Both the position numbers and the translations under genes were made by a program. Positions 12,047 through 41,861 of a DNA stretch of 64,000 nucleotides are shown piece by piece (positions within the stretch are counted from its first letter, which is position 1; the number at the start of each line of letters is the position of its first letter). Source of the stretch: Colwellia polaris (lineage in GTDB: Bacteria > Pseudomonadota > Gammaproteobacteria > Enterobacterales > Alteromonadaceae). The stretch is from NCBI RefSeq assembly GCF_002104515.1, contig NZ_NBOE01000005.1:1-64000 (forward strand), written 5' to 3'. A model generated the notes under the pieces. The model did no database searches. It saw only the letters and a program-made list of their open reading frames with translations, and was not told where the DNA came from.

Positions 12047-12073
12047 TTATTAAAACTATTCATTTGTTTAATT
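12047..12073 (+). promoter_or_regulatory. Shared regulatory motif, copy A (LysR / TonB receptor intergenic)
   Basis: The core TATTCATTTGTTT is preceded by ATTAAAAC and followed by AATT. The same 27-bp string, with one to a few changes, occurs at 15245 and 41835, each upstream of a lipid-catabolic gene. The flanks ATTAAAAC and GTTTAAT form an imperfect inverted repeat, consistent with an operator. It lies 214 bases before the receptor start. Confidence 0.7.
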
Positions 12074-12286
12074 TAATATCTCAACCTATCTTAGTCAAGT
12101 AGTACGAAAATTGTTCTACACTATTTAGTGTGACAACAAATACTATAATTAAGTCTTATTTAGCAATAAGTTAATAACAAGATTAAAAAGGCTTAAATAA
12201 TAATTCATGTTCGAACAATGTATTTGAACAGAATAACTTTAATGAATACGTGTGATTTGGTATGTATAGCAACTCGGGGATTCAAG

Positions 12287-14740
12287 ATGAAGCAAAAGTT
12301 AGCAACAAAGTTTTTTAAACGAGCAGTACTCGTTTCAGCAGTATTAACAGCAATCAATTCAACAGCCGTAAGCGCAGAGGAAGCAACTACTTCGGCACAA
12401 AATGATGATAAAGATGTAGAACGTATTATGATCACCGCCTCTAAGCGGCTAAAAGGTCTGCAGGAATCGCCGGTAGCTGTTACTGTTGTTAGCGGTCAAG
12501 CGATTGAACAAGCAAAAATACTAGATATAAACGACTTACAAACACTCGTACCTACCTTGCGTGTTACACCACTACAACGATCTGTTAATACCAATTTTGC
12601 CATACGAGGTTTCGGGAATGGTACAAACAATACCGGAATTGAGCCATCAGTTGGTGTATTTATAGATGGTGTTTATCGTTCACGTGCAGCTGCTCAAATT
12701 GGTGACTTACCACGCGTACAACAAATTGAGGTACTAAGTGGTCCGCAAAGTACTCTCTTTGGCAAAAATGCTTCAGCAGGGGTTATTAGTGTAAGAACAA
12801 TGGCACCATCGCATGAATTAGAAGGGAAAATTGAGTTAGGGGCCGGTAATTTCAACCAAAAACTTGTTAAAGGCTACATCACGAACGGGGTGACTGACGA
12901 ACTCGCATTAAGCTTATCAGGTGGTTATAACAAAAGAGATGGTTACACTGATAGCGTTGTTGGTTTAAATGAAATTAACAATCGCGATCGATGGAATGTT
13001 CGAGCGCAAGCATTATATGAACCAACAGAAGATGTTACCTTTAGATTAATAGCCGATTACAGCGAAATTGATGAGGCGTGTTGTACCGTAGACGATGTTA
13101 TAAATGGCCCAACTACTGGCGCGGTCAGAGCACTAGGCGGTGTTGTACTCGATGTTGACCCATTTTCTTATAAATCGTCATTGAATATTGACCCTGAAAA
13201 TACTGTTGAAGATGGCGGTATCTCGCTGCAAGTAGATGTAGACTATGAAGAGTTCACATTTACTTCAATTTCATCAGTGCGTCATAATGACTCAGAATTT
13301 TTAAATGATGTAGATTATACTTCACTCGATATTTTACGTGAGGGTGGTCACACTGAAATCGACACATTTACTCAAGAGTTTCGTTTAACATCAACAGGGA
13401 CAAGACAATTAGAGTGGATGGTCGGAGCCTACATATTTCAAGAAGAGGTAAAAACAGGCGATACGTTGTTTTACGGCGACGACATTAGGAGTTATTTTGA
13501 TGTCTTAATGGTTGCTGGTGGTGCAGCAGGTTTGTTAGACGGGGTTGAAGGTGTTTATGGCCTTGCACCAGGATCATTCTTTTCAAATCAATCAGCAGTA
13601 AATTCAGAATTTACACAAGATAATGATGCCTATTCTTTGTTTGCCAATTTTGATTATCATATTTCTGATAAGTTAACTGCTATTTTTGGTTTAAGCTTCA
13701 CGAAAGATGAGAAAAAAATCACCGCTAACCAAACAAATACTGATGTATTGTCGGGTATTGATTTAGATAACGACTTAACCGTATTTGGCGCGCCTTTGCC
13801 ATTTATTCCAACATTAGCTCCGGCAATTCCGACCTTAAAAGGTTTACAGTTTTTACCCCCTATGCCTGGCTTACCTAACTCAGTTGAAAAGAATAAAACG
13901 AATGATAGTAAAACAACTTGGTCAACACGTTTAGCATATGAAGTTAATGATAATATTAATGTATTTGCCTCAGCAGCTACCGGTTTTAAGGCATCTTCAT
14001 GGAACTTATCACGTAATAGTAACCCATTTGCCAGCGACCAAGCGGCACTAGAAAATGCCAATTTAGCTTTAGCTAACCAAAGCTATGGTGGCCGATTTGC
14101 TTCTCCAGAAGAGGCAAAAGTATATGAGCTTGGTCTTAAAGCAAGGTTTAAACAAGGTGCCTTCAATGTCACTTTGTTTGACCAAACAATTAAAGGCTTT
14201 CAATCATCAATATTTATTGGTACTGGTTATATCTTAGCTAATGCGGGTAAACAAAGTACGAAAGGAATTGAATTTGACTCTGTTTATAATCCAACTGAAA
14301 ACTGGTCTTTTACTTTAGCGGGTACTTTTCTTGACCCAATTTATGACTCATTCCAGGGGGCTACAGGGCTTGATGGTCCGGTGGATTTATCAGGAGAAAA
14401 GCCTGCAGGCATTCATGAACGTAGTATAACCGCAGGGGTTACTTACAGTTATGAACTGGACAATGGTGCTTATGGTTATGTTCGTGCTGATTACCTTTAC
14501 GAAAGTGAAGTTCACCTTGTTGAAAACGTGCCGGAGTCAGAAACACGTGAGGTTGGCACCTTGAATGCGAGCGCTGGATTGAATTTCGAAAATGGCATTC
14601 ATGTACAACTTTGGGTACGAAACCTTAATAATGACGAATATCATCTGTCATCATTCCCGCCACCAATTCAAGCAGGCAGCTTTAATTCATACCCTAACCA
14701 ACCACGTACATTCGGTGCAACAGTTTCTTATGAATTTTAA
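12287..14740 (+). CDS. TonB-dependent outer-membrane receptor
   Basis: The protein has 817 residues from ATG 12287, chosen because it is directly followed by a signal peptide (MKQKLATKFFKRAVLVSAVL); the frame extends 23 codons upstream without a signal. A TonB-box-like segment (VERIMITASKR) precedes the plug domain (LQESPVAVTVV to about residue 190), and the 22-strand barrel ends with the typical aromatic VSYEF. It imports bulky substrates across the outer membrane using TonB energy. It resembles non-siderophore receptors that sit beside catabolic clusters. The divergent LysR gene and shared motif point to uptake of the substrate degraded by the 15.4-35.4 kb genes, which is inference. Confidence 0.93.
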   Translation: MKQKLATKFFKRAVLVSAVLTAINSTAVSAEEATTSAQNDDKDVERIMITASKRLKGLQESPVAVTVVSGQAIEQAKILDINDLQTLVPTLRVTPLQRSVNTNFAIRGFGNGTNNTGIEPSVGVFIDGVYRSRAAAQIGDLPRVQQIEVLSGPQSTLFGKNASAGVISVRTMAPSHELEGKIELGAGNFNQKLVKGYITNGVTDELALSLSGGYNKRDGYTDSVVGLNEINNRDRWNVRAQALYEPTEDVTFRLIADYSEIDEACCTVDDVINGPTTGAVRALGGVVLDVDPFSYKSSLNIDPENTVEDGGISLQVDVDYEEFTFTSISSVRHNDSEFLNDVDYTSLDILREGGHTEIDTFTQEFRLTSTGTRQLEWMVGAYIFQEEVKTGDTLFYGDDIRSYFDVLMVAGGAAGLLDGVEGVYGLAPGSFFSNQSAVNSEFTQDNDAYSLFANFDYHISDKLTAIFGLSFTKDEKKITANQTNTDVLSGIDLDNDLTVFGAPLPFIPTLAPAIPTLKGLQFLPPMPGLPNSVEKNKTNDSKTTWSTRLAYEVNDNINVFASAATGFKASSWNLSRNSNPFASDQAALENANLALANQSYGGRFASPEEAKVYELGLKARFKQGAFNVTLFDQTIKGFQSSIFIGTGYILANAGKQSTKGIEFDSVYNPTENWSFTLAGTFLDPIYDSFQGATGLDGPVDLSGEKPAGIHERSITAGVTYSYELDNGAYGYVRADYLYESEVHLVENVPESETREVGTLNASAGLNFENGIHVQLWVRNLNNDEYHLSSFPPPIQAGSFNSYPNQPRTFGATVSYEF

Positions 14741-14807
14741 AGTTTATAATACTGTTCGATTGATATTTTGCTAATCGGTAGTACAAGCGATTAGCAACGC
14801 AATAAAT

Positions 14808-14841
14808 AAAATGCCTTGTAATTCATACAAGGCATTTTTTT
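14808..14841 (+). terminator. Intrinsic terminator after the TonB receptor
   Basis: The 12-bp stem AAATGCCTTGTA/TACAAGGCATTT with a short loop is followed by a T run. It starts 68 bases after the receptor stop. Confidence 0.9.
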
Positions 14842-14889
14842 ATCTAATTTAATCGATTTGAAAGTAAATTATAAAAGACTTTATTAAGT

Positions 14890-15120
14890 AACCTGAACTC
14901 TGGATAAGCAGCACTTGCTCAATGTTCCCTTTTAAGCCATTTTCTGCGTTAAAACGTCGATAAATAGCGCGCTATTCATAAACGTTTTGCCTTGGAAATG
15001 GCATAAAATGAAGCATTGATGATATCTATTCGTGATGTTCACTTGGCTATAGCATTTACTTTATTACCTAAGCTTTTGGTTCACTTGATTTTCAAGCACT
15101 CATTATCCAGAGTTCAGGTT
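14890..15120. mobile_element. 231-bp MITE-like inverted-repeat element
   Basis: The ends are a perfect 18-bp inverted repeat, AACCTGAACTCTGGATAA and its complement. Both ends are flanked by the direct repeat AAGT (14886-14889 and 15121-15124), as left by transposition. The interior is also palindromic: GCCATTT/AAATGGC and AAAACG/CGTTTT arms surround a central AATAGCGCGCTATT. It holds no ORF, so it would depend on a transposase elsewhere. It lies between the receptor terminator and the promoter of the catabolic run. Confidence 0.8.
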
Positions 15121-15244
15121 AAGTAGCAAATAACAGTTAATCCACGATCATTGTTCACATAATACGACCGCTTAATAACCAATTACCTTTATTGATTAGT
15201 CACAATTACGTACCACACGCAGTATTCGTAATAAGAATGTAAGG

Positions 15245-15271
15245 TTATTAGAACTATTCATTTGTTTAATT
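15245..15271 (+). promoter_or_regulatory. Shared regulatory motif, copy B (upstream of catabolic run)
   Basis: This copy matches copy A at 26 of 27 positions (one A-to-G change) over TTATTAGAACTATTCATTTG and the next seven bases. It lies 134 bases upstream of the histidine phosphatase start. Apart from the repeat element and this motif, 14842-15404 holds no gene. Confidence 0.7.
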
Positions 15272-15404
15272 GTTTGCGGGCTATTAGGATAAGGATATTA
15301 GTGTATTTTAACACCATGAAGAGTCATTAATTCCGCTATGGAAAAACTAAGTGAATACTTAAATATGATATATAAACAATATGTTATGGTAAAGGTGTAA
15401 AACA

Positions 15405-16127
15405 ATGGCAGCTATTTATTTGATTCGCCATGGTCAAGCATCTTTTGGTAAAGCCGACTATGATCAACTGTCTGATAAAGGTGCTCAGCAATCGCAACAC
15501 TTGGGCAAATTTTGGCGTACATTAGCGAGCCCAAATAAAGTATTCACTGGCGATTTATTACGTCATGAACAAACCCTCGAAAACTTTCTTATTGGTTACC
15601 AAGGCAATAAACCTTCCACGGTATTACATTCTGGTTTTAACGAATTTAACCATGTTGATTTGTTAACGCGTTCAGATGCACGTTGGAAAAGCTTTGCGCA
15701 TATGGCATCACTAATTAGTAAGTCACCTGATGGAAATAAAGCTTTTCAAAAAGAGTTTGCTCAAGCGCTTAATCGTTGGGTTGAAGGTAAACACGATGGC
15801 GATTATTTAGAGAGTTGGCCAATGTTTAAAAAACGCTGTATAGCCGCACTTTACGATGTAATTAATCACGAACTTGCTGCTAAAAAATTATCAAGTAAGG
15901 CAGAGCCTTCAAAAGATATTTGTATTTTTACTTCAGGCGGTACTATTTCAGTTCTTATTCAACATGTTCTTGATTTAACGGATCAAAACACTTTAGCCGT
16001 TAATCAACAACTGCGTAACACTAGCGTTACTAAGTTGTTGTTTTCGGAAGGTAAGATAAGCATAGATTATTTAAATAACTATGCGCATTTAGCCGATAAG
16101 CCGGCAGATTGGGTAACTTTTAGATAA
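15405..16127 (+). CDS. Histidine phosphatase family protein, second catalytic His replaced
   Basis: This 240-residue protein has the phosphoglycerate-mutase fold. The phospho-accepting His9 is in LIRHGQ and the arginine of the phosphate pocket is in LLRHEQT (residues 51-57). The usual second histidine motif (SHG) appears as FTSGG at 175-179, with Ser177 in its place. It is the first gene of the lipid-catabolic run, 63 bases before the SDR gene. It may act on a phosphorylated or CoA intermediate, or be regulatory. A phosphatase beside a gene for an acyl-CoA kinase is suggestive but unproven. Confidence 0.85.
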   Translation: MAAIYLIRHGQASFGKADYDQLSDKGAQQSQHLGKFWRTLASPNKVFTGDLLRHEQTLENFLIGYQGNKPSTVLHSGFNEFNHVDLLTRSDARWKSFAHMASLISKSPDGNKAFQKEFAQALNRWVEGKHDGDYLESWPMFKKRCIAALYDVINHELAAKKLSSKAEPSKDICIFTSGGTISVLIQHVLDLTDQNTLAVNQQLRNTSVTKLLFSEGKISIDYLNNYAHLADKPADWVTFR

Positions 16128-16190
16128 CTTGCTAAAGAATTTATTAGAAAATTTTTAGATTGTAAAACGACATTAAATAGGAAGATTATA

Positions 16191-16958
16191 ATGAGCAATA
16201 ATTTGTTTGATTTAACAGGAAAAGTTGCATTAGTAACCGGTGCAAGTCGTGGTATAGGTGAGCATATAGCAAAATTACTGGCCGAAAATGGTGCGCACGT
16301 TATTGTATCAAGTAGAAAAATTGACGGTTGCCAAGCGGTAGTAGAACAAATCATTGCTGCAGGCGGAAGTGCACAAGCTATTGCTTGTCATATTGGTGAA
16401 ATGGACCAAATTGAAGCCATCTTTGCACAAATATCATCGGAGCACGGTAAGTTAGATATTTTAGTTAACAATGCAGCTGCAAACCCTTATTTCGGCCATG
16501 TGCTTGATACTGACTTAGCTGCTTTTCAAAAAACCGTTGATGTAAACATCAGAGGCTACTTCTTTATGTCAACCATGGGTGCAAAACTTATGAAAGCTAA
16601 TGAAGGCGGTGCCATTGTCAACGTTGCTTCAATAAACGGTGTTATTCCTGGCGACTACCAAGGTATTTATTCAATTACCAAAGCTGCTGTTATTTCGATG
16701 ACCAAAACATTCGCCAAAGAATGTGCACAGTTTAATATTCGAGTGAATGCACTTTTACCGGGTGGTACCGACACCAAATTTGCCTCAACGTTAGTTAATA
16801 ATCCGAAAATTTTAGAACAAATGATGCATCACGTACCAATGAAACGTGTTGCTCAACCAGAGGAAATGGCTGGCACTGTGTTGTATTTAGTGTCAAACGC
16901 CTCAAGTTACACAACAGGTACAGCTATTAATGTTGATGGCGGCTATTTAATTGGCTAA
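16191..16958 (+). CDS. SDR family oxidoreductase (FabG-like)
   Basis: This 255-residue classical short-chain dehydrogenase carries the NAD(P) motif TGASRGIG (residues 17-24), the NNAAAN stretch, and the catalytic Tyr-Lys in YSITKAAV. The C terminus INVDGGYLIG is typical. It would oxidise or reduce a hydroxy/keto group on a pathway intermediate. It is the second gene of the run, with 78 bases before the flavin oxidoreductase. The substrate is not evident. Confidence 0.9.
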   Translation: MSNNLFDLTGKVALVTGASRGIGEHIAKLLAENGAHVIVSSRKIDGCQAVVEQIIAAGGSAQAIACHIGEMDQIEAIFAQISSEHGKLDILVNNAAANPYFGHVLDTDLAAFQKTVDVNIRGYFFMSTMGAKLMKANEGGAIVNVASINGVIPGDYQGIYSITKAAVISMTKTFAKECAQFNIRVNALLPGGTDTKFASTLVNNPKILEQMMHHVPMKRVAQPEEMAGTVLYLVSNASSYTTGTAINVDGGYLIG

Positions 16959-17036
16959 GTAACCTAAAAAAGATAATGGCTATTTTATTATCTTTATCAA
17001 GTTTTAAACAAAAATTCAGAATATTTAGGAAGTTAT

Positions 17037-18152
17037 ATGAGTAACAGTAATTCAGCAAAACTTTTTCAGTCATTTTCAACTGGTGGTTTAACATTAAAAA
17101 ACCGTACCGTAATGGCACCGATGACACGTACATTTTCACCTAATAATGTTCCCTCAAATGATGTAGCTCAATACTACCGTCGTAGAGCAGAAGGTAATGT
17201 GGGTTTAATTATTACCGAAGGTACTTTTATCTCACATAAAGCGGCGAATGGTTATGAAAATGTTCCGGCTATTTTTGGTGAAGAAGCATTAGCAGGATGG
17301 AAACATGTAGTCGACGAAGTACATGCAGCAGGTGGCAAAATTGCACCACAGCTATGGCATGTAGGTTCGGTTCGTAAAGAAGGCGTAGGGCCAGATAAAT
17401 CAGTGCCGGGTTATAGCCCGTCTGGTTTATATAAGCCAGGTGCACCAAACGGTGTTGCTATGAGCCAAAGTGACATTGATGAAGTTGTTGCTTCATTTGC
17501 CCAAGCCGCTGCTGACTCTAAAGCCATTGGCTTTGACGCCATTGAAATTCATGGCGCGCACGGTTACCTTGTTGATCAATTTTTATGGGAAGGCACCAAC
17601 CAACGTACTGATGAATATGGTGGTTCTTTAGAAAATCGCGCTCGATTTGCTGTGGAAATTATTGCCGCTATTCGCGCTGCCGTTGGTGAAGACTTCCCCA
17701 TTATTTTCAGGTTCTCACAATGGAAACAACAAGATTATAACGCCAAACTTTGCCAAACACCGGCTGAATTAGAGCGTTTATTGACGTTACTTAGTGATGC
17801 AGGCGTTGACGTATTTCATGCCAGCACTCGTCGTTTTTGGTTGCCTGAATTTGAAGGTTCAGATCTTAATCTTGCGGGTTGGACTAAAAAAATCACCAAT
17901 AAGCCTGTTATTACTGTTGGCAGTGTAGGGCTTGATAGTGACTTTACAGGTGAAGGCAGTGTTGACCTTGGTGGTACATCAAACCCAACAGGTATTGAAG
18001 GTTTACTTACTCGATTAAATAATGATGAATTTGATCTTGTGGCTATTGGTCGAGCGTTATTAGTTGATCCTCAATGGGTTAATAAAATTGAGCAAAACAA
18101 AGAAGATGAAATAGCGCCATTTAATAAAGCAGCATTAATGAAATTAAGCTAA
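17037..18152 (+). CDS. Old Yellow Enzyme-type NADH:flavin oxidoreductase
   Basis: This 371-residue single-domain FMN enzyme has the OYE signatures: MAPMTRTFSP near the N terminus, the substrate-binding pair in HGAHGYLVDQFLWEG, and the following DEYGGSLENR. It lacks the C-terminal iron-sulfur/FAD domains of full 2,4-dienoyl-CoA reductase. Such enzymes reduce activated C=C bonds of enones, enals or enoyl groups. Within this run it probably saturates an unsaturated or keto-conjugated intermediate. A hairpin follows its stop codon. Confidence 0.92.
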   Translation: MSNSNSAKLFQSFSTGGLTLKNRTVMAPMTRTFSPNNVPSNDVAQYYRRRAEGNVGLIITEGTFISHKAANGYENVPAIFGEEALAGWKHVVDEVHAAGGKIAPQLWHVGSVRKEGVGPDKSVPGYSPSGLYKPGAPNGVAMSQSDIDEVVASFAQAAADSKAIGFDAIEIHGAHGYLVDQFLWEGTNQRTDEYGGSLENRARFAVEIIAAIRAAVGEDFPIIFRFSQWKQQDYNAKLCQTPAELERLLTLLSDAGVDVFHASTRRFWLPEFEGSDLNLAGWTKKITNKPVITVGSVGLDSDFTGEGSVDLGGTSNPTGIEGLLTRLNNDEFDLVAIGRALLVDPQWVNKIEQNKEDEIAPFNKAALMKLS

Positions 18153-18165
18153 CCAAACATCAAAG

Positions 18166-18187
18166 GAGCCAATAATGTTATTGGCTC
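18166..18187 (+). terminator. Intercistronic hairpin between OYE and acyl-CoA dehydrogenase
   Basis: The perfect stem GAGCCAATAA/TTATTGGCTC has almost no loop and is followed by only a weak T stretch. It may attenuate transcription or protect mRNA ends within the run more than it terminates. Confidence 0.5.
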
Positions 18188-18219
18188 TTCATTGAAAATA
18201 ACAACAATAAGGACTTCTC

Positions 18220-19431
18220 ATGGATTTTGAATACAGTGACAAGGTTAAAGATTTAATTCAACGTGTAACAGCATTTATGGACGAGCATGTATACCCTGTT
18301 GAACAAAAAATGCATGAGCAAGTCGCCGAAAACCAATGGACTACACCGCCATTAATGGAAGAGTTAAAAGCCAAGGCAAAAGCCCAAGGCTTATGGAATT
18401 TATTTTTGCCCGTAAGTTACGGTAAATACAGTGCAGGCTTAACCAACCTAGAATACGCACCACTGGCTGAAATCATGGGTAAAGTTATGTGGGCACCTGA
18501 AGTGTTTAACTGTGCGGCACCAGATACCGGAAACATGGAAGTATTAGCTAAATACGGTAACGAAGCACAAAAGAAACAATGGTTAGAGCCGTTACTTGAG
18601 GGGAAAATTCGTTCGGCTTTTGCGATGACCGAGCCAGAAGTTGCTTCAAGTGATGCAACCAACATTGAATTACGTATTGAACGTGATGGCGATGAGTATG
18701 TTATCAACGGTCGTAAATTCTATATTAGTGGTGCTTGTCGCCAGCAATGCGAAATTATGATCGTCATGGGGAAAACAGATCCCGACAATAGCAATCGCTA
18801 CATTCAGCAATCTCAAGTTCTTGTTCCAATGAATACACCAGGTGTAACAAAAGTGCGTCCGATGCAAGTGTTTGGTTATAACGATGCACCAGAAGGGCAT
18901 GCAGAAATCACCTTTGAAAATGTACGTGTACCCGTTGAAAATATTATTGTTGGTGAAGGTAAAGGTTTTGAAATTGCCCAAGGTCGTTTAGGGCCAGGCC
19001 GTATTCATCATTGCATGCGTTCAATTGGCGTTGCTCAACGTGCACTTGATCTTATGTGTAGGCGAGTAAACGAGCGTGTGGTATTTGGTCGTCCTATGAT
19101 CAAGCAACAATCTATTCGTGAAGATATTGCTATCTCTGCTTGTCAAATTGAACAAGCACGACTAATGACTTTAAAAGCCGCTCACAAGATGGACACAGAA
19201 GGCAATAAAGCCGCAAAAGATATCATTGCGATGATAAAAATTGTTGCTCCTAATATGTCACTCGATGTGCTCGATCGCGCCATTCAATGTCATGGCGCCG
19301 TTGGTGTTAGCCAAGATACTTTCTTAGCGCATGCTTATGCTGGCCAACGTACGTTACGTTTAGCTGATGGTCCAGATCAAGTTCACATGATGCAATTAGG
19401 CCGTGACTTAGTTAAAAAAACGGTCGGCTAG
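18220..19431 (+). CDS. Acyl-CoA dehydrogenase, ACAD10/11-like
   Basis: This 403-residue flavoprotein has the standard acyl-CoA dehydrogenase domain order: helical N domain, beta domain with [11 protein letters not shown] at about 137-147, and C-terminal helical domain with the RVVFGRPM and [10 protein letters not shown] motifs. It resembles the dehydrogenase domain of ACAD10/ACAD11. The next gene, 40 bases downstream, encodes a kinase resembling their other domain. In that family the pair converts 4-hydroxyacyl-CoA to enoyl-CoA through a 4-phospho intermediate. Assignment of that substrate here is inference from the pairing. Confidence 0.9.
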
Positions 19432-19471: not shown

Positions 19472-20533
19472 ATGGAAGAAATGGATAAAACAACGAAAAC
19501 AGCAGCTAATGTTCCTTTTGACATGGAAACGTTAGCGCAATACCTAACATTGCATGTAAAGGGTTTTGCTGGGCCACTTACAGTGGAGAAATTCCCTGGT
19601 GGCCAATCAAACCCAACGTATAAGTTAACTGCTGCATCAGGTGTTTATGTATTACGCAGTCAACCAGCAGGTAAATTATTAAAGTCTGCGCATGCCGTTG
19701 ACCGGGAGTATCAAGTACTTGATGCTTTGAAAAATACGGATGTACCTGTGGCACAAGTTTATCATCTGTGCCGCGACACCAGTATTATCGGCACAATGTT
19801 TTATCTGATGGAGTTTTGTGATGGCACTGTTTATTGGAGTGCCTCGTTAGCTGAAGTTTCATCAAATAATGAAAGAACACAAATATACGATCAAATGAAT
19901 AAAGCACTAGTTGCGCTGCATAGTGTTGATATTAACACCACAGGCTTGTCTGAATACGGCAAAGCCGGTAATTATTTTCAACGCCAGTTTACTCGATGGC
20001 ACTCACAATATCGCGCGACACAATTAACAGAAATTCCTGCAATGGAATCGTTAATGTCATGGCTTGAAAGCCATTTACCTGAAGACGACGGACGTGTTTG
20101 CCTTGTTCATGGCGACTTTCGTTTGGACAATATTATGTTCGAACATAACAGTAGCAAAGTGATCGCGGTTTTAGATTGGGAGCTATCTACGCTTGGTCAT
20201 CCGTTTTCTGATCTCGCTTATCAATGTATGCAACTACGTATGCCCCAAGGCATGGGCACCATAGACGGACTAAAAGGTGTTGACCGTACAAGCATAGGTA
20301 TTCCGAGTGAAGAAGAATATGTTGCTGCGTATTGTCAACGCATGGGTATTGATCGAATAGAAAACTGGAGCTTTTATCTCGCGTTTAGTTTTTTCAGGCT
20401 AGCAGCCATTGTACAAGGCGTGGCAAAACGCGCATCACAAGGCAATGCTTCTAATGAACAAGCGAATAAAGTGGGTGCTTTTGTAGAACCACTAGCACAA
20501 ATGGCTTTAAGTATTATTGAAGAAGCGGATTAA
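19472..20533 (+). CDS. APH-fold kinase, ACAD10/11 kinase-domain / LvaA-like
   Basis: This 353-residue phosphotransferase of the aminoglycoside-phosphotransferase/choline-kinase fold shows the nucleotide-binding GGQSNPTYKL, the catalytic loop LVHGDFRLDNIMF and the metal-binding LDWELSTLGHP. All three are characteristic of the ACAD10/11 kinase domain and of LvaA of levulinate catabolism, which phosphorylate a 4-hydroxyacyl-CoA. It is not expected to be an antibiotic-resistance enzyme. It follows the acyl-CoA dehydrogenase by 40 bases, reproducing the two-domain eukaryotic protein as two genes. A start three codons downstream (ATG 19481) is possible. Confidence 0.9.
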   Translation: MEEMDKTTKTAANVPFDMETLAQYLTLHVKGFAGPLTVEKFPGGQSNPTYKLTAASGVYVLRSQPAGKLLKSAHAVDREYQVLDALKNTDVPVAQVYHLCRDTSIIGTMFYLMEFCDGTVYWSASLAEVSSNNERTQIYDQMNKALVALHSVDINTTGLSEYGKAGNYFQRQFTRWHSQYRATQLTEIPAMESLMSWLESHLPEDDGRVCLVHGDFRLDNIMFEHNSSKVIAVLDWELSTLGHPFSDLAYQCMQLRMPQGMGTIDGLKGVDRTSIGIPSEEEYVAAYCQRMGIDRIENWSFYLAFSFFRLAAIVQGVAKRASQGNASNEQANKVGAFVEPLAQMALSIIEEAD

Positions 20534-34494: not shown

Positions 34495-35406
34495 ATGGAA
34501 TATTTAAGAACTGATGATAGCTGTTTTTCAGCACTAGAAGATTACGATTTTTCAGCTAATTATTTAACTGTTGATGACACTGAAGGTGGTCAACTCAGAG
34601 TGCATTATGTAGATGAAGGCCCTAAAACGGCAACACCTATATTACTTATGCACGGAGAGCCTACGTGGAGTTATCTGTATCGTAAAATGATCCCTTTGCT
34701 TGTTGCCGCAGGTTACCGTGTTATCGCTCCCGATCTTATAGGTTTTGGTCGCTCAGACAAACCCACTAAGCGTTCTGATTACACTTATCAGCGCCATGTA
34801 GACTGGATGCGCAGTTTGCTAGAACAACTAGAACTCACAGACATTACACTGTTTTGTCAAGATTGGGGTGGTTTAATCGGTTTGCGCTTAGTCGCTGAAG
34901 AAGGACAACGTTTTGCACGTGTGGTTGCAGGAAATACTATGTTACCTACGGGTGAACATGCGCCAGGCGAAGCATTTGTTCAGTGGCAAAAGTATTCCCA
35001 AGAGGTGGCTGAATTCCCCACTGGCGCTATAATCAATGGCGGTGCAGTAATGCCATTGTCAGAAAGTACTATTGCCGCCTATAACGCTCCTTATCCAAGC
35101 GAAGCATATAAAGAGGGCGCTCGACAGTTTCCGTTATTAGTGCCAACTCGACCGACTGATCCCGCATCGAAAAGTAATAAAGCGGCGTGGCAAATGTTAG
35201 CTAAATGGCAAAAACCTTTTTTAACAGCGTTTAGTGATAGCGATCCTATCACCAAAGGCGGTGATAAAATAATGCAAAAACTTATTCCAGGTACGAAAGG
35301 GCAAGCACATATCACGATAGAAGCTGCTGGACATTTTTTACAGGAAGATCAACCTGAGCAGCTTGCGCAAGTTATTCAAGCGTTTATAGAATCGACCAGC
35401 GCATAA
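34495..35406 (+). CDS. Haloalkane dehalogenase, HLD-I type
   Basis: This 303-residue alpha/beta hydrolase fits subfamily HLD-I. The HGEPTWSYLYRKM motif (residues 53-65, with oxyanion/halide Glu55), the nucleophile Asp123 with halide-binding Trp124 in CQDWGG, an acid in FSDSDPIT, and His280 in AAGHFLQED are all present. It hydrolyses carbon-halogen bonds to alcohol and halide. It closes the same-strand run, 69 bases after the VWA gene. It may remove halogen from the substrate or be a promiscuous hydrolase. Epoxide hydrolase is the main alternative, made less likely by Trp124. Confidence 0.88.
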   Translation: MEYLRTDDSCFSALEDYDFSANYLTVDDTEGGQLRVHYVDEGPKTATPILLMHGEPTWSYLYRKMIPLLVAAGYRVIAPDLIGFGRSDKPTKRSDYTYQRHVDWMRSLLEQLELTDITLFCQDWGGLIGLRLVAEEGQRFARVVAGNTMLPTGEHAPGEAFVQWQKYSQEVAEFPTGAIINGGAVMPLSESTIAAYNAPYPSEAYKEGARQFPLLVPTRPTDPASKSNKAAWQMLAKWQKPFLTAFSDSDPITKGGDKIMQKLIPGTKGQAHITIEAAGHFLQEDQPEQLAQVIQAFIESTSA

Positions 35407-35478
35407 TACCAATTGATATAAACAATCGATCATTCTAAAGCGGTTTAAAATTGATCGATTCATTAAATCAATTGGTAT
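35406..35478. repeat. 73-bp imperfect inverted repeat (REP/MITE-like)
   Basis: The ends ATACCAATTGAT and ATCAATTGGTAT are perfect inverted repeats. The inner arms AATCGATCA and TGATCGATT also pair, making one long hairpin. It lies just after the dehalogenase stop and before a separate terminator. It has no ORF. Short elements of this kind are common in Alteromonadales intergenic regions, to my knowledge. Confidence 0.75.
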
Positions 35479-35527
35479 AAGAGATACTTTTTATAAATAG
35501 TATATAGATACTATATAAATTTCTGAT

Positions 35528-35557
35528 AAAAAAAGAGCACATGTAGTGCTCTTTTTT
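35528..35557. terminator. Bidirectional terminator between dehalogenase and crotonase genes
   Basis: The stem AAAAGAGCAC/GTGCTCTTTT is flanked by A and T runs, so it can work in both directions. It lies between convergent genes. Confidence 0.88.
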
Positions 35558-35580
35558 CTCTACGCTAAATAAAAAACTGA

Positions 35581-36273
35581 CTATAAAGACAAAATCATAT
35601 TTGCATCAAGTGCAATTGCTTCATCAAGTGCGGCTAAAATATCTTTACGCTCTTTTAATTTAGTACCGTGATGCGCTTTCATATTTAAAGTTTGCATTTG
35701 TAGTGCTGCATTTTTGGCTGTTTCTAATAGCAACTCAGGCTCAACAGCAGCATCTAAAAATCCTGCAACAATGGCCGCTTCTGGTGAAAACAACTCAGCA
35801 TTTATTACCGAACGCGTTAAGTAATTAATGGGTAGGCGATTGCGTGCTATTTCAATGCCGGCTTGGTGCATGGTCATGCCAATAGCCACTTCATTTAAAC
35901 CTATTTTGAATTTTCCTAAGCTACCAATACGGTAATCACAACTAAGTAATAAAAATGCGCCTTTAGCAATAGCATGGCCTGTACAGGCACCAATAATAGG
36001 CATAGGGAACGACAACATACGGCGCGATAACGTTGAACCAGCCGTTACAAGAGCAACAGCAGATTCAGAGCTTTCTTTCATGGTTTTTAAATCAAAGCCA
36101 CCCGAGAAAATCCCTGGCTGCCCGGTTAAAATAACCACAGCGCTAGCTGCTTCAGCTTGATCTAAAGCGTCGTTAATTTCAGCAATTACCTGATGCGAGA
36201 TAGCATTAACTTTGCCATTTTTAAGCGTTATTGTTGCAATATTTTCATTAATATCAAAATCGATTAATTCCAC
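35581..36273 (-). CDS. Crotonase/enoyl-CoA hydratase family protein
   Basis: This 230-residue crotonase-fold protein starts at GTG 36273, with AGGA upstream. The oxyanion-hole segments are GQPGIFSGGFDLK (about residues 51-63) and CTGHAIAKGAF. It lacks a clear pair of catalytic Glu residues in the second segment, so hydratase activity is uncertain. It converges on the catabolic run. It may add an (S)-type hydration or another crotonase reaction to lipid breakdown. Confidence 0.88.
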   Translation of the reverse strand: MELIDFDINENIATITLKNGKVNAISHQVIAEINDALDQAEAASAVVILTGQPGIFSGGFDLKTMKESSESAVALVTAGSTLSRRMLSFPMPIIGACTGHAIAKGAFLLLSCDYRIGSLGKFKIGLNEVAIGMTMHQAGIEIARNRLPINYLTRSVINAELFSPEAAIVAGFLDAAVEPELLLETAKNAALQMQTLNMKAHHGTKLKERKDILAALDEAIALDANMILSL

Positions 36274-36827
36274 AGTTCTTCCTATTTTCAGTGTTTTTAT
36301 GACGGTATTAAATTAGAAATCACACTTCAACCTACAATAAAGCTAATTGAGTGATCTTTGTGTATTAATAACCTAGTTGTTGTATTTTTCGCTAAGAATA
36401 CAAAATTTAAAAATAACCACACCATAGTAACAAAGGTAGTGAAACAATCATCAAAAATTAAGACAATTCATAAATTATTTTTCTATTTCGCGACAGTTAG
36501 ACCACTTTTTGCATTATATCTCTGCAATATAGTAATAATTAGCCGATTTTATCAACAATTAAGTTATATAAGTTGCCATTACAAATTAAGTTTTTTAACA
36601 AAAATTAAACTTTTTACTAAAAAATAATATGGATCGCTTTTTTTTTTGAAAACACTAACTACTATTACTTATGTAAGTGTCTGCATTATCGATATATTTA
36701 TTAAAAAATCATCAGTTGTTTAATTTTAATATCATTAATAAATTTCACAGCAAAGTTATATAAGCTAACAAGAAAAAATTTACTTTACTGGATAAGTTTA
36801 TATTTTATGAATAGAGAGAAGTAACTA
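36274..36827. other. Very AT-rich intergenic region
   Basis: It must hold promoters for the crotonase gene and for the receiver/hemerythrin gene, but no clear operator or RNA is visible. An 89-codon GTG-started frame at 36358-36627 is low-complexity and not convincing. Confidence 0.5.
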
Positions 36828-38417
36828 ATGAAGCCTGCGAAAATCACCAATCAACCCGATATTGTTATGATTTATCAAGAGCGAGAGACTGTTGAGGCTG
36901 CTATTGAACAAATAACAGAGTTGGGTTTAGATTTTAAAACTTACAAGTTTAACCCCAGTAAGTTACATAGCCTAACGGCATTAAAGCCTAAAGTTTTATT
37001 ACTTTCTTCTAATAACATTAAAAACACAATTGAATTCTATATCAATTATTTAGAAGAGTATGAGCAAAATATTGCTGCTCATAGTGCTATTTTGTTGATT
37101 AACAATCGTGAAACCTACCGAGCATATTTAGCTTGTGAAAATGGTTTATTTGATGACTATGCGATTATTAACCCATTAAATGAACCCTATCGCTTAAAGT
37201 TAGTGCTACTAAAAGAGCTAAAGCTGATAGAAGAAAATACAAAAGATGGATTAGACCAACTTGTTAATAACGGTGAAGACGAACTTGCATCTTGTATTGA
37301 ACATGGCATAGCACTTAAAAAAACATTTATTGCAGGTGTTAGCCAATGCGAAAATACTATTCTTAATGCGACTAATACGGCTGTTGAAAATCAAAAAGCT
37401 AAGGCTATTTTACAAAATTTAGTGGGCTTATCTTTAGAGCAAATGAACGATAAAGTTTCAACTCAAATAGAGGGGATTTTAGATCAGCTTCTGGCATTAA
37501 AAGACAATAATGAAGCCGTTAAAGAAAAACTGATACAAAGTGCAACTCAAGATAAAATAGGCGTTAATACTGCGCTGTTAAATGTTGATGAACAAGATAT
37601 AGAGCACTTGCAAACTACATGTTACAAGATTCTTGTTGCTGAACCTTCGGATATGTTTACTCGGGTAATAGATAAAATATTTTCAGACACCTTTTTTAAA
37701 CATGTATTGGTTAATGACGGTAAAGTAGCCCTTGATACAATACATAGCTTTCAACCCGACGTTGTACTATTAGCCTATGATTTACCGACATTAAATGGCA
37801 TTGAAATTACAAAAATTATTCGTGATAAAGGAAACCAAGTCCCGATTATTGCTTACACACAACATCGTGATAGAGAAGCGATAAAACGTTGGTTTCCACT
37901 CGGCTTAAGTGGTTACTTAATTAAACCTTCTAAGAAAAGTGCTATTTTAAAAAGTATTCTTAAGGCCATAAAGTTACCCAATGAAGTACTTGAATATCAT
38001 GAAAAAGATAAAACCAAACTCTTTAAATGGTCGCCTAAATATCTATTAGGTAATAAAGATATTGATGAAAAACATGAGATTATTTTTACCATGTTAAATG
38101 ACTTTTATCATAAAGAAAACAAACAGTCTGCCATTATGCTTGCGCAACATTTATCTTCATACATAGATTTACAATTGTCATCAGAAGAGAGTTTACTTAG
38201 GCAAATAAACTATCCCGATACAGAAAATCATGTAAAAGAACACCAAGAATTTAGAGAAAACTTTAAATCGTTAATCAAGAAGCTAGAACATTATAACGTT
38301 GATTTACAACATAAAATAGCTATGTATATTTTCAACTGGCTCAGTAATCATATATTAAAGTCAGATATATCTATTAAAGACTATGCATTGTCTATTGAAG
38401 ATGAGAGCTTTAGTTGA
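36828..38417 (+). CDS. Pseudo-receiver plus hemerythrin-like signalling protein
   Basis: This 529-residue protein has three parts. Residues 1-140 look like a degenerate receiver-type alpha/beta domain; 150-250 is helical; about 268-390 is a second receiver domain followed by a C-terminal hemerythrin domain (about 400-520). In the second receiver the phospho-accepting Asp is replaced by Ala316 (LLAYDLPTLNG), although the conserved Thr and Lys (YTQHR, LIKPSK) remain. The hemerythrin motifs are DEKHE, SSEES, ENHVKEH and NHILKSD, but the His of the usual HFxxEE motif is Gln449. It may sense oxygen, NO or redox without phosphorylation. No kinase or output domain is adjacent. Confidence 0.85.
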   Translation: MKPAKITNQPDIVMIYQERETVEAAIEQITELGLDFKTYKFNPSKLHSLTALKPKVLLLSSNNIKNTIEFYINYLEEYEQNIAAHSAILLINNRETYRAYLACENGLFDDYAIINPLNEPYRLKLVLLKELKLIEENTKDGLDQLVNNGEDELASCIEHGIALKKTFIAGVSQCENTILNATNTAVENQKAKAILQNLVGLSLEQMNDKVSTQIEGILDQLLALKDNNEAVKEKLIQSATQDKIGVNTALLNVDEQDIEHLQTTCYKILVAEPSDMFTRVIDKIFSDTFFKHVLVNDGKVALDTIHSFQPDVVLLAYDLPTLNGIEITKIIRDKGNQVPIIAYTQHRDREAIKRWFPLGLSGYLIKPSKKSAILKSILKAIKLPNEVLEYHEKDKTKLFKWSPKYLLGNKDIDEKHEIIFTMLNDFYHKENKQSAIMLAQHLSSYIDLQLSSEESLLRQINYPDTENHVKEHQEFRENFKSLIKKLEHYNVDLQHKIAMYIFNWLSNHILKSDISIKDYALSIEDESFS

Positions 38418-38626
38418 TTTACAACAAATGAAGTAACGTAGACTACTAACGGGTGTAAATGTTGGTTATTTTTTTATAGGCCATACTTTGGCTAACTTTG
38501 ACTAACTCTGATTAATTATCGCTATGATCTCTAGTCATAATAATTCTAAGTGTTCAGGCACTTAATTAAGCATAATTGTTAGAATGTGTTTTATAACTTT
38601 TATTTATAATTTTATTTATGACTAAA

Positions 38627-38676
38627 TGATAGGTTCGACATTATTACCTAACTAATGTTGAACCTATCAGTATTTT
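38627..38676. terminator. Terminator between convergent genes
   Basis: The long stem TGATAGGTTC/GAACCTATCA with inner ACATTA/TAATGT pairing is followed by TATTTTT on the plus strand. It can end transcripts from both sides. Confidence 0.8.
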
Positions 38677-38693
38677 TATGACATTTTAGCTCG

Positions 38694-39599
38694 TTAGACT
38701 TTAGCTTGTGTAGTTTGAGTTGCCAGCAAGTTAACTCTTGCACGCAAAAACCTCACCAATACACCTGCGGTAAACAACATTACCAAAGTATATATAGCAG
38801 GTGTAAATGACATTTTATAATTCGCTAATAATGTTAACGCCATAAACATTGATAAGGTACTGTTTTGTAAGCCTACTTCAATAGTAACCGAGGTGGTTTG
38901 TGCGGCATTTAAGCCAAACCAGCGGCTTGAATAATAGCCTAGCGCCATTGTTGAAATATTTAAAATCAGAGACACAGGACCTGTAGCGATAAAAGCGGAT
39001 ACAACAATATCTTGTTGGACATAAGTTAAAAATATTATCAATAAAGTTAAAAACAAAATACCAAACCTAGAAACCAACACTTGGCTGCTGTCAGCAAATC
39101 GAGGAGCAAAAGCCTTAATAAGCATACCTATAGCAATAGGAATAATAGTTAAGCTCATTAAGCTGATAATTGTCGGTATTAGCGGTAATTGAAATGCATT
39201 ACCTTCGCCCATAAAATGCACAAGTGATAAATTTAACACGATAGGAATAGTAAATACGGTAATTAAGCTTGCCACCGCCGTCATGGTAACTGAAAGGGCA
39301 ACATCGCCTTTTGCGATATGTGAAAACATGTTTGACGTTGTACCGCCAGGGCAAAGCACTAACAACATAACACCAACCGCATATTCCGGCTCTAACGGCA
39401 TAACATTAGCAAGCGTAAAGCCAATAATAGGCAGTAATATTAGTTGATTGAGCAAACCAATCGACACAGCTTTAGGGTATTTTACGATACGTTTAAAATC
39501 ATTCGGTACCAGCGATAACCCCATACCCATCATAATCAAAAATATACATACTGGAACCACTTGTGTATTTACAAATGTAACTAATTCTGTGCCTTGCAT
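38694..39599 (-). CDS. Bile acid:sodium symporter (BASS) family transporter
   Basis: This polytopic protein has about 301 residues and nine to ten membrane segments. It shows family features such as LCPGGTTSNMFSHIAKGD and EVGLQNSTLSMF. It imports organic anions with sodium; bile-acid, pantothenate, pyruvate and other substrates are known for the family. ATG 39599 is chosen because GGAG lies six bases before it; in-frame ATGs at 39605 and 39611 are alternatives. It stands alone between convergent and same-strand neighbours. Confidence 0.9.
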   Translation of the reverse strand: MQGTELVTFVNTQVVPVCIFLIMMGMGLSLVPNDFKRIVKYPKAVSIGLLNQLILLPIIGFTLANVMPLEPEYAVGVMLLVLCPGGTTSNMFSHIAKGDVALSVTMTAVASLITVFTIPIVLNLSLVHFMGEGNAFQLPLIPTIISLMSLTIIPIAIGMLIKAFAPRFADSSQVLVSRFGILFLTLLIIFLTYVQQDIVVSAFIATGPVSLILNISTMALGYYSSRWFGLNAAQTTSVTIEVGLQNSTLSMFMALTLLANYKMSFTPAIYTLVMLFTAGVLVRFLRARVNLLATQTTQAKV

Positions 39600-39945
39600 A
39601 TTCATCTCCATTAGAGGCTATTGAACGTTCTTGTTTAAATTTATTTTAATAACTGCGTTAAACTAATCTTGGTTTAACGTTAACTGGCTTAACTCGCTAA
39701 ACGAATAACGACACAGTTACTTGGTATAAATTGCTTTGGCTTGCATTCTTCTCGCTATACTTACTTTCCTATAAATTCAAAATAACGTACTTTTTACTAT
39801 TTTTTGGTTCAACACCCATACCGCGACGGTGTTTGAGCATGTCTCTAGCTATATTTATTAAGCTTTCATTTACCTTTATCTTAATTTTTTTTAGCTTTAC
39901 GCCGTTATCTAAGTAAATTTCTAACAGCAATTATTAAGAGACAAC
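39600..39945. other. Intergenic region, nothing recognised
   Basis: The gap is AT-rich with no convincing gene. A 61-codon plus-strand frame at 39731-39916 is Phe/Leu-rich, has no ribosome site and is probably chance. The region should contain the promoter of the BASS gene. Confidence 0.4.
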
Positions 39946-40878
39946 TTAAGTGTTTATAAAGTTTTCAATCGCAATATTTATCTGGGCAGACTTTTCATGC
40001 ATTAACCAGTGACTCGCATCTTTGAAGCGTTCAATCGTGCAGTTGGGCACATATTGCTCAAGGTTATTTAAATTCTCCACAACAAAGGCTTCGTCTTGTT
40101 CTCCCCATAATATTAAGGTTGGAACATTGACTCGAATATTAGGTATTTTCATTTCACTAACGTGCTTTACTTGCTGGTTTGCCTTCTCATCGCTTTTAGC
40201 AGCAAGTTGCGGCATCGCACGATAGTACTGAAGCATGCCATTAATAACCCCCGTTTGCTGCCAAGCAGCAATATAGTTAGCTTTAGTGTCAGCATTCAAT
40301 ACGGCAGAACCGTCAGCAAAAAGCATTTTCTCACATAAGTATTGGTAATTATTTGCTTGCAATAAATCTTCCGCATTAAGGTCAATTAATTGGTGAATGT
40401 AGTCACTTTTATTACGTTGTAATGGGTTGTTGATCATTTCACGAGTGAAAGTACTTGGGTGCGCTGCATTTAAAATAACTAGCTTATCAATATACTGGGA
40501 ATAAAATGCTGCTAATGGCCATGCAATAGCGCCACCCCAATCATGCGCCACTAATAATACTTTTTGGTTTTGACTTACCGCAGCGATAAATTTACTGAAA
40601 AAGTTAATTAAATTTGGCACCTGATAAAAACTAATATCATCGGGCTTGTCGCTTAAATTATAACCGGGTAGATCGGGGGCAATGACACGATAATTATCTG
40701 AGAAATAGCTCAGTTGATGTTGCCAGGCCTGCCAGTACTCAGGAAAACCATGAAGAAAAACCAATGTGGGCTTGTTGTTGGAATTGTTTTTTTTATTTAA
40801 ATCTGGTTCGGCGCTAACATAATGTATGTTAACACCTTCAATATCTATATAGTGGCTAGTAAGCGACATAGCTGGCAT
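39946..40878 (-). CDS. Alpha/beta hydrolase, epoxide-hydrolase-like
   Basis: The protein has about 310 residues with an alpha/beta-hydrolase fold. HGFPEYWQAWQHQL carries the oxyanion motif, DLPGYNLSDKP follows, the nucleophile Asp is in VAHDWGGAIAW and the base His in DASHWLMHE. This set is typical of epoxide hydrolases, but dehalogenases and other esterases share it. It begins five bases after the nitroreductase stop and is co-transcribed with it. The frame also permits TTG 40881 or ATG 40869 as start. Confidence 0.87.
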   Translation of the reverse strand: MPAMSLTSHYIDIEGVNIHYVSAEPDLNKKNNSNNKPTLVFLHGFPEYWQAWQHQLSYFSDNYRVIAPDLPGYNLSDKPDDISFYQVPNLINFFSKFIAAVSQNQKVLLVAHDWGGAIAWPLAAFYSQYIDKLVILNAAHPSTFTREMINNPLQRNKSDYIHQLIDLNAEDLLQANNYQYLCEKMLFADGSAVLNADTKANYIAAWQQTGVINGMLQYYRAMPQLAAKSDEKANQQVKHVSEMKIPNIRVNVPTLILWGEQDEAFVVENLNNLEQYVPNCTIERFKDASHWLMHEKSAQINIAIENFINT

Positions 40879-40883
40879 CAATA

Positions 40884-41546
40884 TTAGCTAAAAAATTTAA
40901 CGGCATTTGATACAGCTTCTCGTTCGGTACGAGTGGTGTTAACTGCAGCACTTTCGTCAGCGTAACCAAACGACATACCAAATAAAATTCCACGCTGTTC
41001 AGGTAGGTTCAGCGCTGCTTTAACGGGATCTGGAAATTGCCCTAAAGCACCTTGCATACAACATGAAAGACCATGTTCAGCTAATATTAGTGCTAACGAC
41101 TGCGCGTAAATCCCTAAATCAACGGCACCCATAATATCTAGGTATTTGTCCATAGTAAAAAATACGACATGCGGTGCATCAAAAAATTGCCAGTTGCGTA
41201 TCATCGCCATTTGTCGGCCGCGTTTATCCTCTCGAGCGACACCGATTGCGCTATATAAGGCATTTGCAGAGCCAAATTGACGATCGCGATGAATACCTTC
41301 GTATTTGGGTAGCCAGTTAAAGTCTGGGTTTGGCGCTTCGCCTTTCATTACCGTGGCAACAAGATCTTGCTTCAGCTGGTCTTTCATTGCCCCTGAAACA
41401 ACACAGGTTTGCCAAGGCTGCACATTACAGTTAGATGGTGATTGTTGTGCTTGTTCAAAAATAGTATCGAGCAATGCTTGAGAAACAGGTTTATCTAAAT
41501 AAGCACGAGCTGAGTAACGTTTTTCTAATAAAGCAATAACAGACAT
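40884..41546 (-). CDS. Nitroreductase family FMN oxidoreductase
   Basis: This 220-residue protein has the N-terminal motif RYSARAYLDKPVS, the FMN-binding QSPSNCNVQPWQT and the later LSCCMQGALGQFP. Such enzymes reduce nitro compounds, quinones or enones with NAD(P)H. AAGGA precedes the ATG at 41546. It is divergent from the acyl-CoA dehydrogenase gene across a 415-base gap containing a perfect palindrome and the shared motif. Confidence 0.9.
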   Translation of the reverse strand: MSVIALLEKRYSARAYLDKPVSQALLDTIFEQAQQSPSNCNVQPWQTCVVSGAMKDQLKQDLVATVMKGEAPNPDFNWLPKYEGIHRDRQFGSANALYSAIGVAREDKRGRQMAMIRNWQFFDAPHVVFFTMDKYLDIMGAVDLGIYAQSLALILAEHGLSCCMQGALGQFPDPVKAALNLPEQRGILFGMSFGYADESAAVNTTRTEREAVSNAVKFFS

Positions 41547-41739
41547 AACAGAGATCCTTTTTAAAATCGTAAGGTAATTTTATATAGTTAACTTTAACAA
41601 CGAGTTATCACAAACTCGGGGTAAGTTTATCTTGTCATGCTAAAGCTGATATTTTTATAACGCCAATGAATAATTATAATGGCGCTGTATTCAAATAACA
41701 TATACTAGTGGAATAATTGTCACATTTTTATTCGTTATC

Positions 41740-41753
41740 TTGACAATTGTCAA
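41740..41753. promoter_or_regulatory. Perfect 14-bp palindrome, candidate operator
   Basis: TTGACAATTGTCAA lies midway between the divergent nitroreductase and acyl-CoA dehydrogenase genes. TTGACA is repeated at 41771 and ATTGTCA at 41716, so it may overlap -35 elements. It looks like a TetR- or MarR-type operator site. Confidence 0.55.
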
Positions 41754-41834
41754 ATATCATAAAATCAATCTTGACAGCAGTAAAATTATCGATATATTTG
41801 TTTGGCTTGCTGTATACGAATAGTTAATAGTGAG

Positions 41835-41861
41835 TGATTAAAAATATTCATTTGTTTTATA
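41835..41861 (+). promoter_or_regulatory. Shared regulatory motif, copy C (upstream of acyl-CoA dehydrogenase)
   Basis: The core TATTCATTTGTTT is identical to copies A and B. The upstream ATAGTGAGTGATTAAAAA matches copy A (ATAGTGGGTTATTAAAAC) beyond the core. It ends 100 bases before the start of the acyl-CoA dehydrogenase gene. Confidence 0.68.

Follow-up and report, generated by a model that had tools for sequence, protein, structure and literature searches.

Here, we describe a 57-bp promoter module in a 64,000-nucleotide stretch of the Colwellia polaris genome (contig NZ_NBOE01000005.1, positions 1 to 64,000; the whole stretch is called the window). The module lies upstream of a TonB-dependent receptor gene, a 17-gene catabolic run, an acyl-CoA dehydrogenase gene and a nitroreductase gene, and is very probably a switch read by one neighbouring regulator, a LysR-type protein. 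A first-pass annotation of the window had noticed a 27-bp motif in front of three of these units. It had suggested an operator for a single regulator, most simply the LysR protein encoded at 11079, defining a regulon. The features concerned are listed below with scores from a position weight matrix (PWM) and expectation values (E) from a sequence profile searched genome-wide.

11079-11978, minus strand: LysR-type regulator (HTH_1 and LysR_substrate domains), predicted reader of the module (Pfam, PDB comparison, 37 related loci).
12036-12092, plus strand: site A module, predicted to serve the TonB receptor; box 12036-12073, -35 TTGTTT, TATCTT in the -10 place at 12087-12092 (PWM 49.4; E 5.0e-10).
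12287-14740, plus strand: TonB-dependent outer-membrane receptor (PF00593, PF07715); alternative open reading frame (ORF) start at 12218.
15234-15290, plus strand: site B module, predicted to serve the 17-gene run; left arm degenerate, right arm intact, -10 TAGGAT at 15285-15290 (PWM 40.6; E 2.9e-10).
15405-35406, plus strand: 17-gene run, probably a single operon (Pfam and PDB comparisons), encoding in order a histidine phosphatase (HisPhos), SDR, OYE, ACAD1, APH-type kinase, SDR, ACAD2, MaoC, SDR, thiolase, AMP ligase, an alkenal/prostaglandin-reductase-like enzyme, molybdopterin oxidoreductase, DUF1295, MoxR-like AAA, CoxE-like protein and alpha/beta hydrolase.
18220-19431, plus strand: ACAD1, acyl-CoA dehydrogenase of the ACAD10/11-LvaC type (PDB matches, diagnostic residues).
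19472-20533, plus strand: APH-family kinase of the ACAD11/LvaA type (PDB matches, HGDFRLDN catalytic motif).
38694-39611, minus strand: SBF-family transporter (Pfam), beyond a 334-bp gap from the following hydrolase; probably co-transcribed.
39946-40881, minus strand: alpha/beta hydrolase (Pfam), directly after the nitroreductase in the direction of transcription; probably co-transcribed.
40884-41546, minus strand: nitroreductase-family protein (Pfam), first gene past site D.
41637-41693, minus strand: site D module (new, weaker), predicted to serve the nitroreductase; -10 TAGCAT at 41637-41642 (PWM 15.7; E 4.2e-7).
41824-41880, plus strand: site C module, predicted to serve ACAD3; -10 TAGCAT at 41875-41880 (PWM 34.6; E 3.2e-11).
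41962-43758, plus strand: ACAD3, acyl-CoA dehydrogenase with an Acyl-CoA_dh_C domain (Pfam).

The three copies of the motif stand where the first-pass annotation had placed them, at 12047, 15245 and 41835 on the plus strand, and its count of 17 genes in the run also holds. Copies A and B differ, as claimed, at one of 27 bases, and C has two mismatches to the 20-base core and shares the upstream ATAGTG with A. When TTATTANAACTATTCATTTG was sought with up to three mismatches, the window gave three matches against 0.20 expected, a number reached in 1 of 100 shuffles. Across the 4.43-Mb genome (28 contigs), the perfect matches to ATTANAANTATTCATTTG are three, namely A, B and C; at up to two mismatches there are 24 matches, no more than the 29 of a reversed-pattern control, and the non-perfect ones are therefore background. 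The extent of the motif had been drawn too short, as the conserved unit is about 57 bp long and reaches through the -10 hexamer. The inverted repeat seen in the ends of the 27-mer is replaced by a conserved symmetry, GAATAGT-N11-ACTATTC, that begins upstream of it. To the three sites on one strand we add the weaker site D on the other. Symmetry alone is unspecific, since six of the eight window matches to ATAGT-N11-ACTAT (one mismatch allowed) are unrelated. Single-strand folding of the three sites gave no structure beyond that of shuffled sequences (z 0.33, 0.47 and -0.20), and a reading of the motif as an RNA element or hairpin was rejected on these values.

The protein encoded at 11079 has an N-terminal HTH_1 and a C-terminal LysR_substrate domain, both above the Pfam cut-off, and its closest solved structures are LysR-type, such as 1uth (E 1.5e-47). 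The entry 1uth is DntR, and the closest structures belong to the NahR/NagR/DntR class. A contig scan for relatives of the regulator gave 37 loci, from Colwellia, Cognaticolwellia, Shewanella, Thalassotalea, Alteromonadaceae and Kangiellaceae assemblies, Marinobacter and one Rhodobacteraceae genome; in all 11 relatives compared (the best 11 of the 37), the helix-turn-helix domain is more conserved than the effector domain. With site A as the query, at least 29 of 38 bases were matched in the 400 bases upstream of the LysR start in 30 of the 37 loci. For a 38-base matrix, 33 of the loci contributed 28 distinct sites, with the window excluded and L056, L062, L088 and L090 left out (L and G numbers denote loci and genomes of our set); one training row (L058) scored just 14.3 and is probably out of register, its site lying at the edge of the scanned stretch. 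This matrix ranks A, B, C and D in that order (D matched on the minus strand at 41656-41693), and no other window position reaches 8. A profile of 62 positions and 75 sites, also trained without the window, finds C, B, A and D in the window's genome, the next match having an E of 0.124. The full-genome scan thus yields four sites only, all in promoters of one gene region, and not a random scatter.

The training sites share TGAATAGT-AGGTTATTAGA-ACTATTCATTTGTTTAATTTA, and the dyad GAATAGT-N11-ACTATTC is a T-N11-A box of the kind found in LysR operators, with the T in 27 and the A in 23 of the 28 sites. For statistics, the window and 72 loci were scanned together, giving 86 sites that score at least 20, or 79 distinct sites once 7 exact duplicates are dropped. 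The 57-bp module consists of the dyad, then TTGTTT as the -35 and, 17 bp on, TAGCAT as the -10. This six-base block is the only other conserved block outside the box, with T in 79, A in 78, G in 67, C in 68, A in 78 and T in 78 of the 79 sites. TANNAT stands exactly 17 bp after the -35 in 77/79 sites, and no other offset between 40 and 75 has it in more than 5/79; TTGTTT is present in 44 sites, TAGCAT in 61 and TATAAT in none. At site A, the profile alignment ends on the first base of the -10. Between sites of one locus that precede different targets (32 pairs), identity reaches 0.76 over the box and 0.92 over the six-base block but falls to 0.33 for the spacer and, for the 80-base flanks, to 0.35 on the upstream and 0.27 on the downstream side. 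Because box and -10 are alike while flanks and spacer are unrelated, the module is a box and a sigma-70 type promoter held in phase, and not a longer copied stretch. The distance from the box to the LysR start is variable (25 to several hundred bases) and that to the -10 is fixed. With the six-base block taken as the -10, the dyad centre would lie near -50 and the conserved stretch would run from about -63 to -26. A variant right arm, ACAATTGATTGG, is common to the TonB-receptor and nitroreductase promoters of three genomes, G014, G015 and G040 (L127 6956, L128 4630, L129 6898), and may be read differently by the regulator.

Scanning relatives with the matrix showed that the module recurs in Colwellia, Cognaticolwellia, Shewanella and Thalassotalea, where it sits in orthologous promoters. 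In 34 of the 37 loci (33 of the 37 also gave training sites), the region upstream of the LysR gene holds a site with a score of 18 or more, directed away from that gene. As is usual for LysR regulators, the gene is divergent from a predicted target with the operator between them, in the window as well. The directly divergent gene is that of the histidine phosphatase in 28/37 loci; L059, L060, L061 and L063 resemble the window in having one or two TonB receptor genes in between, every promoter with its own site. An extra site is found within the gene run before MaoC in 13/37 loci (Cognaticolwellia, Shewanella and uncultured Colwellia), and in further genomes sites precede a second TonB receptor, ACAD3 and the nitroreductase. 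In all five loci fetched for the purpose (L122-L126), a C-type site stands before ACAD3. D-type sites before the nitroreductase (score of at least 14) were found in three of the five, L122, L123 and L124, and also in L187; in the other two of the five genomes, the D-type site was seen by the profile only (G008, E 1.2e-5; G005, E 2.0e-4).

All 79 distinct sites lie outside ORFs (those that match a window protein or have at least 200 codons) and have their next downstream gene on the same strand. These genes encode HisPhos (32 sites, 2 of them about 600 bp off), TonB receptors (14), MaoC (12), ACAD3 (10), the nitroreductase (5), ACAD1 (2) and, once each, OYE, SDR1, SDR2 and an unnamed gene. What is conserved appears to be control of the catabolic genes and not of lysR itself. 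At L062 (15.4 kb), no other gene of the window accompanies the LysR gene, and the upstream match is weak (24/38); the same genome (G522) carries four significant sites on another contig, before HisPhos, a TonB receptor, ACAD3 and a nitroreductase. Eight pattern matches in relatives fall off the regulon, all with three mismatches, five within ORFs (L130, L186, L188, L192, L203) and three between unrelated genes (L131, L132, L133), and we take them to be chance; chance matches also appear at lower matrix scores (18.0 within an ORF of L188; 14.2 in L132). Two arrangements of the receptor promoters may be recorded here. At L055 (9476-9940) and L065 (9483-9975), no TonB receptor was found between a pair of module sites; the arrangement looks like two promoters that outlasted a lost receptor gene. 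At L063 (3606-9915; also L194), tandem TonB receptors have a site each, one of the sites with its left spacing one base shorter.

The module co-occurs with this LysR gene. Among 60 relatives, 18 encode a LysR protein of at least 53% identity and all 18 have the module (E 2e-9 or better); in the 42 others it is found in none at E <= 0.001, nothing being better than 0.002. Among 246 genomes of the family, the pattern at up to two mismatches occurs in 28 of the 38 with the LysR gene (E 1e-75 or better) and in 0 of the 208 without it, and at up to three mismatches in 36/38 and 14/208, respectively. In 295 genomes of the order, the profile (E <= 0.001) matches 10/10 with the gene and 1/285 without it. 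An ACAD1 orthologue without such a LysR gene is present in 45 of the 246 genomes, where the pattern is found in 0/45 at up to two mismatches and in 2/45 at three. As these ACAD1-bearing genomes lack the pattern at up to two mismatches, the module follows the regulator and not the enzymes. Seven such ACAD1 loci (L196-L202) differ in gene order and lack any site scoring at least 14; their ACAD1 cassette mostly includes the kinase, HisPhos and an alkenal-reductase-like gene. The module, its fixed spacing, its targets, its co-occurrence with the LysR gene and the enzyme families were all computed directly.

Two further features lie among these units. Between the TonB receptor gene and site B is a 231-bp element (14890-15120) with terminal inverted repeats AACCTGAACTCTGGATAA. 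This repeat end occurs 141 times in the genome (69 + 72) at up to one mismatch, compared with 0 for a reversed control, and the ends often face each other in pairs with starts 213 bases apart. The element belongs to a family resembling miniature inverted-repeat transposable elements, of about 70 copies if there are two ends per copy. The repeat stops at about 15120-15130, before site B, and does not carry the site. A 529-amino-acid protein that combines a response-regulator receiver with a hemerythrin domain (36828-38417) is encoded between the two catabolic groups, and its position relative to ACAD3 varies in relatives.

We propose, with a probability of about 0.82, that the motif forms the operator within a portable sigma-70 type promoter, 57 bp long and dependent on an activator, which the LysR protein encoded at 11079-11978 reads in front of four units. 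The comparative evidence thus supports well the single regulator named in the first-pass annotation. The LysR protein would bind GAATAGT-N11-ACTATTC and the adjoining conserved TTTGTTTAATT, immediately upstream of, and over, the poor -35 (TTGTTT). With inducer bound, it would recruit RNA polymerase to the non-consensus -10 (TAGCAT) at a fixed phase, and the TonB receptor for uptake, the 17-gene run, ACAD3 and the nitroreductase-hydrolase genes (possibly with the SBF gene) would be switched on together. Binding, activation rather than repression, the inducer and the substrate are what we infer from sequence comparison. The same protein at the same sites could instead be a repressor that covers the -35 and departs when inducer arrives, as the conserved stretch extends over the -35 and a protein bound there could keep polymerase out. 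However, both hexamers are poor and are conserved as non-consensus, as expected for activator-dependent promoters, which makes repression less likely; the box to -10 spacing is also all but invariant, and we consider a repressor unlikely.

The other explanations set aside the LysR protein or its operator altogether. A promoter type of an alternative sigma or global factor with no tie to the LysR gene would account for -35 and -10 like elements at a fixed spacing, but we judge it very improbable given that the genome has four sites only, all within one gene region, that the dyad is a T-N11-A box, and that the module tracks one LysR orthologue and is missing in nearly all genomes without it. There is a similarly slim chance that the sites are read by a different regulator, such as a paralogue of the LysR protein. 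Two such paralogues of 36-37% identity (E <= 1e-40) are encoded in the genome, but 12 of the 60 genomes have only relatives of 29-39% identity (for example G018, G020, G021, G024, G026 and G031) and, at E <= 0.001, lack the module. That the motif stems from chance similarity or a mobile repeat is next to impossible. A repeat of about 70 copies does adjoin site B, but it ends without the site, and an origin in a transposable element or by chance is ruled out by the four module copies in the genome and by different-target flanks that are unrelated where the box is alike.

Several observations weigh against our proposal of a LysR-activated module. The dyad centre, at about -50 as counted from the inferred -10, is closer to the promoter than the -65 at which high-affinity LysR sites usually lie (PMC4730206), a position that is usual and not strictly defining. 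The sites compared have no conserved block further upstream of the dyad. In the window itself, the left arm of site B is degenerate and site A departs from TANNAT with TATCTT. Three of the 37 loci (L062, L088, L090) lack a site near the LysR gene, and the genomes of L088 (Marinobacter, 46% identity) and L090 (Rhodobacteraceae, 33%) have no significant site (best E 0.02, and none, respectively); the box is therefore confined to closer LysR orthologues. The three-mismatch pattern occurs in 14 of 208 LysR-less family genomes, a number that the reversed control also gives, and among the 60 relatives it occurs in the LysR-less G007 (66% complete). It misses two of the 38 LysR genomes, G112 and G140, in which the profile or matrix does find a site (E 1.1e-8; score 37.2). 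The single LysR-less profile match in the order is G381 (82% complete, E 3.6e-5), and a partial match in G040, to model positions 3-34, lies away from the regulon (E 2.7e-4). Finally, many genomes of the 60- and 295-genome sets also gave training sites, so that their recall cannot count as an independent measure, and the genomes, where related, are not independent observations; the absences in LysR-less genomes and the four matches in the window's genome are unaffected by the training overlap.

What, then, might the regulon do? The best PDB matches of ACAD1 are ACAD11 structures (2wbi, 8v3u, 8v3v; E about 1e-131), followed by the unnamed relative 4hr3 (1.5e-124) and, from 1.6e-43, by other dehydrogenases. 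ACAD1 keeps the RIHHCMR stretch; a 13-residue segment and RLADGPD align with R626, R631, H634, R637 and D753 of mouse ACAD11, and ACAD1 so has the HCMR motif, upstream arginine and catalytic aspartate of the ACAD10/11-LvaC type. The APH-type kinase matches 3dxp (E 8.3e-114) and the kinase domain of ACAD11 (8v3v, E 9.5e-85); its HGDFRLDN aligns with HGDFKLDN and includes the catalytic Asp and Asn (D220 and N225 of ACAD11). Residue places in both proteins were counted by hand, the chain numbering being one lower throughout, which we take as a missing first residue. The meaning of these residues is given for ACAD11 (PMC12440821), and the domains of the mouse enzyme phosphorylate 4-hydroxyacyl-CoA and convert the phosphorylated product to enoyl-CoA, two reactions that separate proteins, LvaA and LvaC, carry out in Pseudomonas putida (PMC12440821, PMC11342911). 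The diagnostic residues of ACAD1 and the kinase are therefore a pointer to 4-hydroxyacyl-CoA breakdown: the kinase would phosphorylate 4-hydroxyacyl-CoA and ACAD1 would remove the phosphate to leave an enoyl-CoA for ordinary beta-oxidation.

OYE and the prostaglandin/alkenal-reductase-like protein suggest unsaturated carbonyl substrates, and MaoC, SDR, thiolase and AMP ligase would supply activation and beta-oxidation. The regulon would thus most likely channel an acyl substrate, oxygenated or unsaturated, through 4-hydroxyacyl-CoA, the switch turning on uptake and breakdown of an unusual lipid. The lipid-catabolic role assigned in the first pass is borne out by the enzyme families; the identity of the substrate is a guess. 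A fuller reading, which we offer tentatively and regard as rather doubtful, is of a regulon for scavenging marine oxylipins or 4-oxo- or 4-hydroxy-lipids, defined by the LysR gene and the 57-bp cassette. The TonB receptor or receptors would import oxidised or furan-derived fatty acids; OYE, the prostaglandin-reductase-like enzyme and perhaps the nitroreductase would saturate enones; and the ACAD11-like kinase/lyase pair would remove the 4-hydroxyl. The cassette, with its selected weak -10, might have arisen or been copied as a unit into the non-homologous promoters of the TonB receptor, operon head, operon middle, ACAD3 and nitroreductase, with growth of the regulon across genera. A literature search on furan fatty acids gave no useful match among the matches listed.

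Our findings provide, all at once, a precise predicted binding site, a promoter and a set of predicted target genes for a LysR protein that had not been characterised, and they link a TonB receptor of unassigned substrate to ACAD11-type pathway chemistry. The regulator and the four promoters also form a ready biosensor, with which the substrate question is testable. A near-invariant non-consensus -10 at a fixed distance over unrelated promoters is a natural set for the study of LysR action on polymerase from a nearer position.

How does this regulon compare with known systems? With the NahR/NagR/DntR class it shares the nearest structures, the T-N11-A dyad and a gene divergent from its presumed targets, but those targets are acyl-CoA and TonB genes and not genes of aromatic degradation, and the dyad is near -50 instead of the usual -65. 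The best NCBIfam family for the protein is BsrA (PA2121 of Pseudomonas aeruginosa), which also has T-N11-A boxes (PMC8407307); at 223.2 bits against a cut-off of 480 for the equivalog NF050187, identity with BsrA was rejected. BsrA is also reported to bind 765 regions of low sequence conservation (PMC8407307), whereas the four sites here are tightly conserved. LysR regulators with T-N11-A boxes are a kind already known (PMC8407307, PMC4730206), and as far as our literature search reached, this is an undescribed LysR regulon of that kind: no description of it was found in the literature searched, with Table 2 and the additional files of PMC3223726, which could list the regulon, outside its scope. 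The general job, control of acyl-CoA catabolism, is also that of PsrA, FadR, FadP and LiuR, known from fatty-acid and branched-chain regulons of Shewanella and other Proteobacteria, which are TetR, GntR, TetR and MerR proteins, respectively, and of which PsrA, FadR and LiuR act in Shewanella (PMC3223726, PMC5343134); unlike these, the present regulator is LysR-type and has its own box. Finally, the pairing of a kinase with an atypical acyl-CoA dehydrogenase, down to the diagnostic residues, is that of the lva operon of Pseudomonas putida and of mammalian ACAD10/11. The lva operon is under LvaR (PMC10164729), whereas here the regulator is a different one and the run is longer, with ene-reductases, a thiolase, a molybdoenzyme and a TonB receptor.

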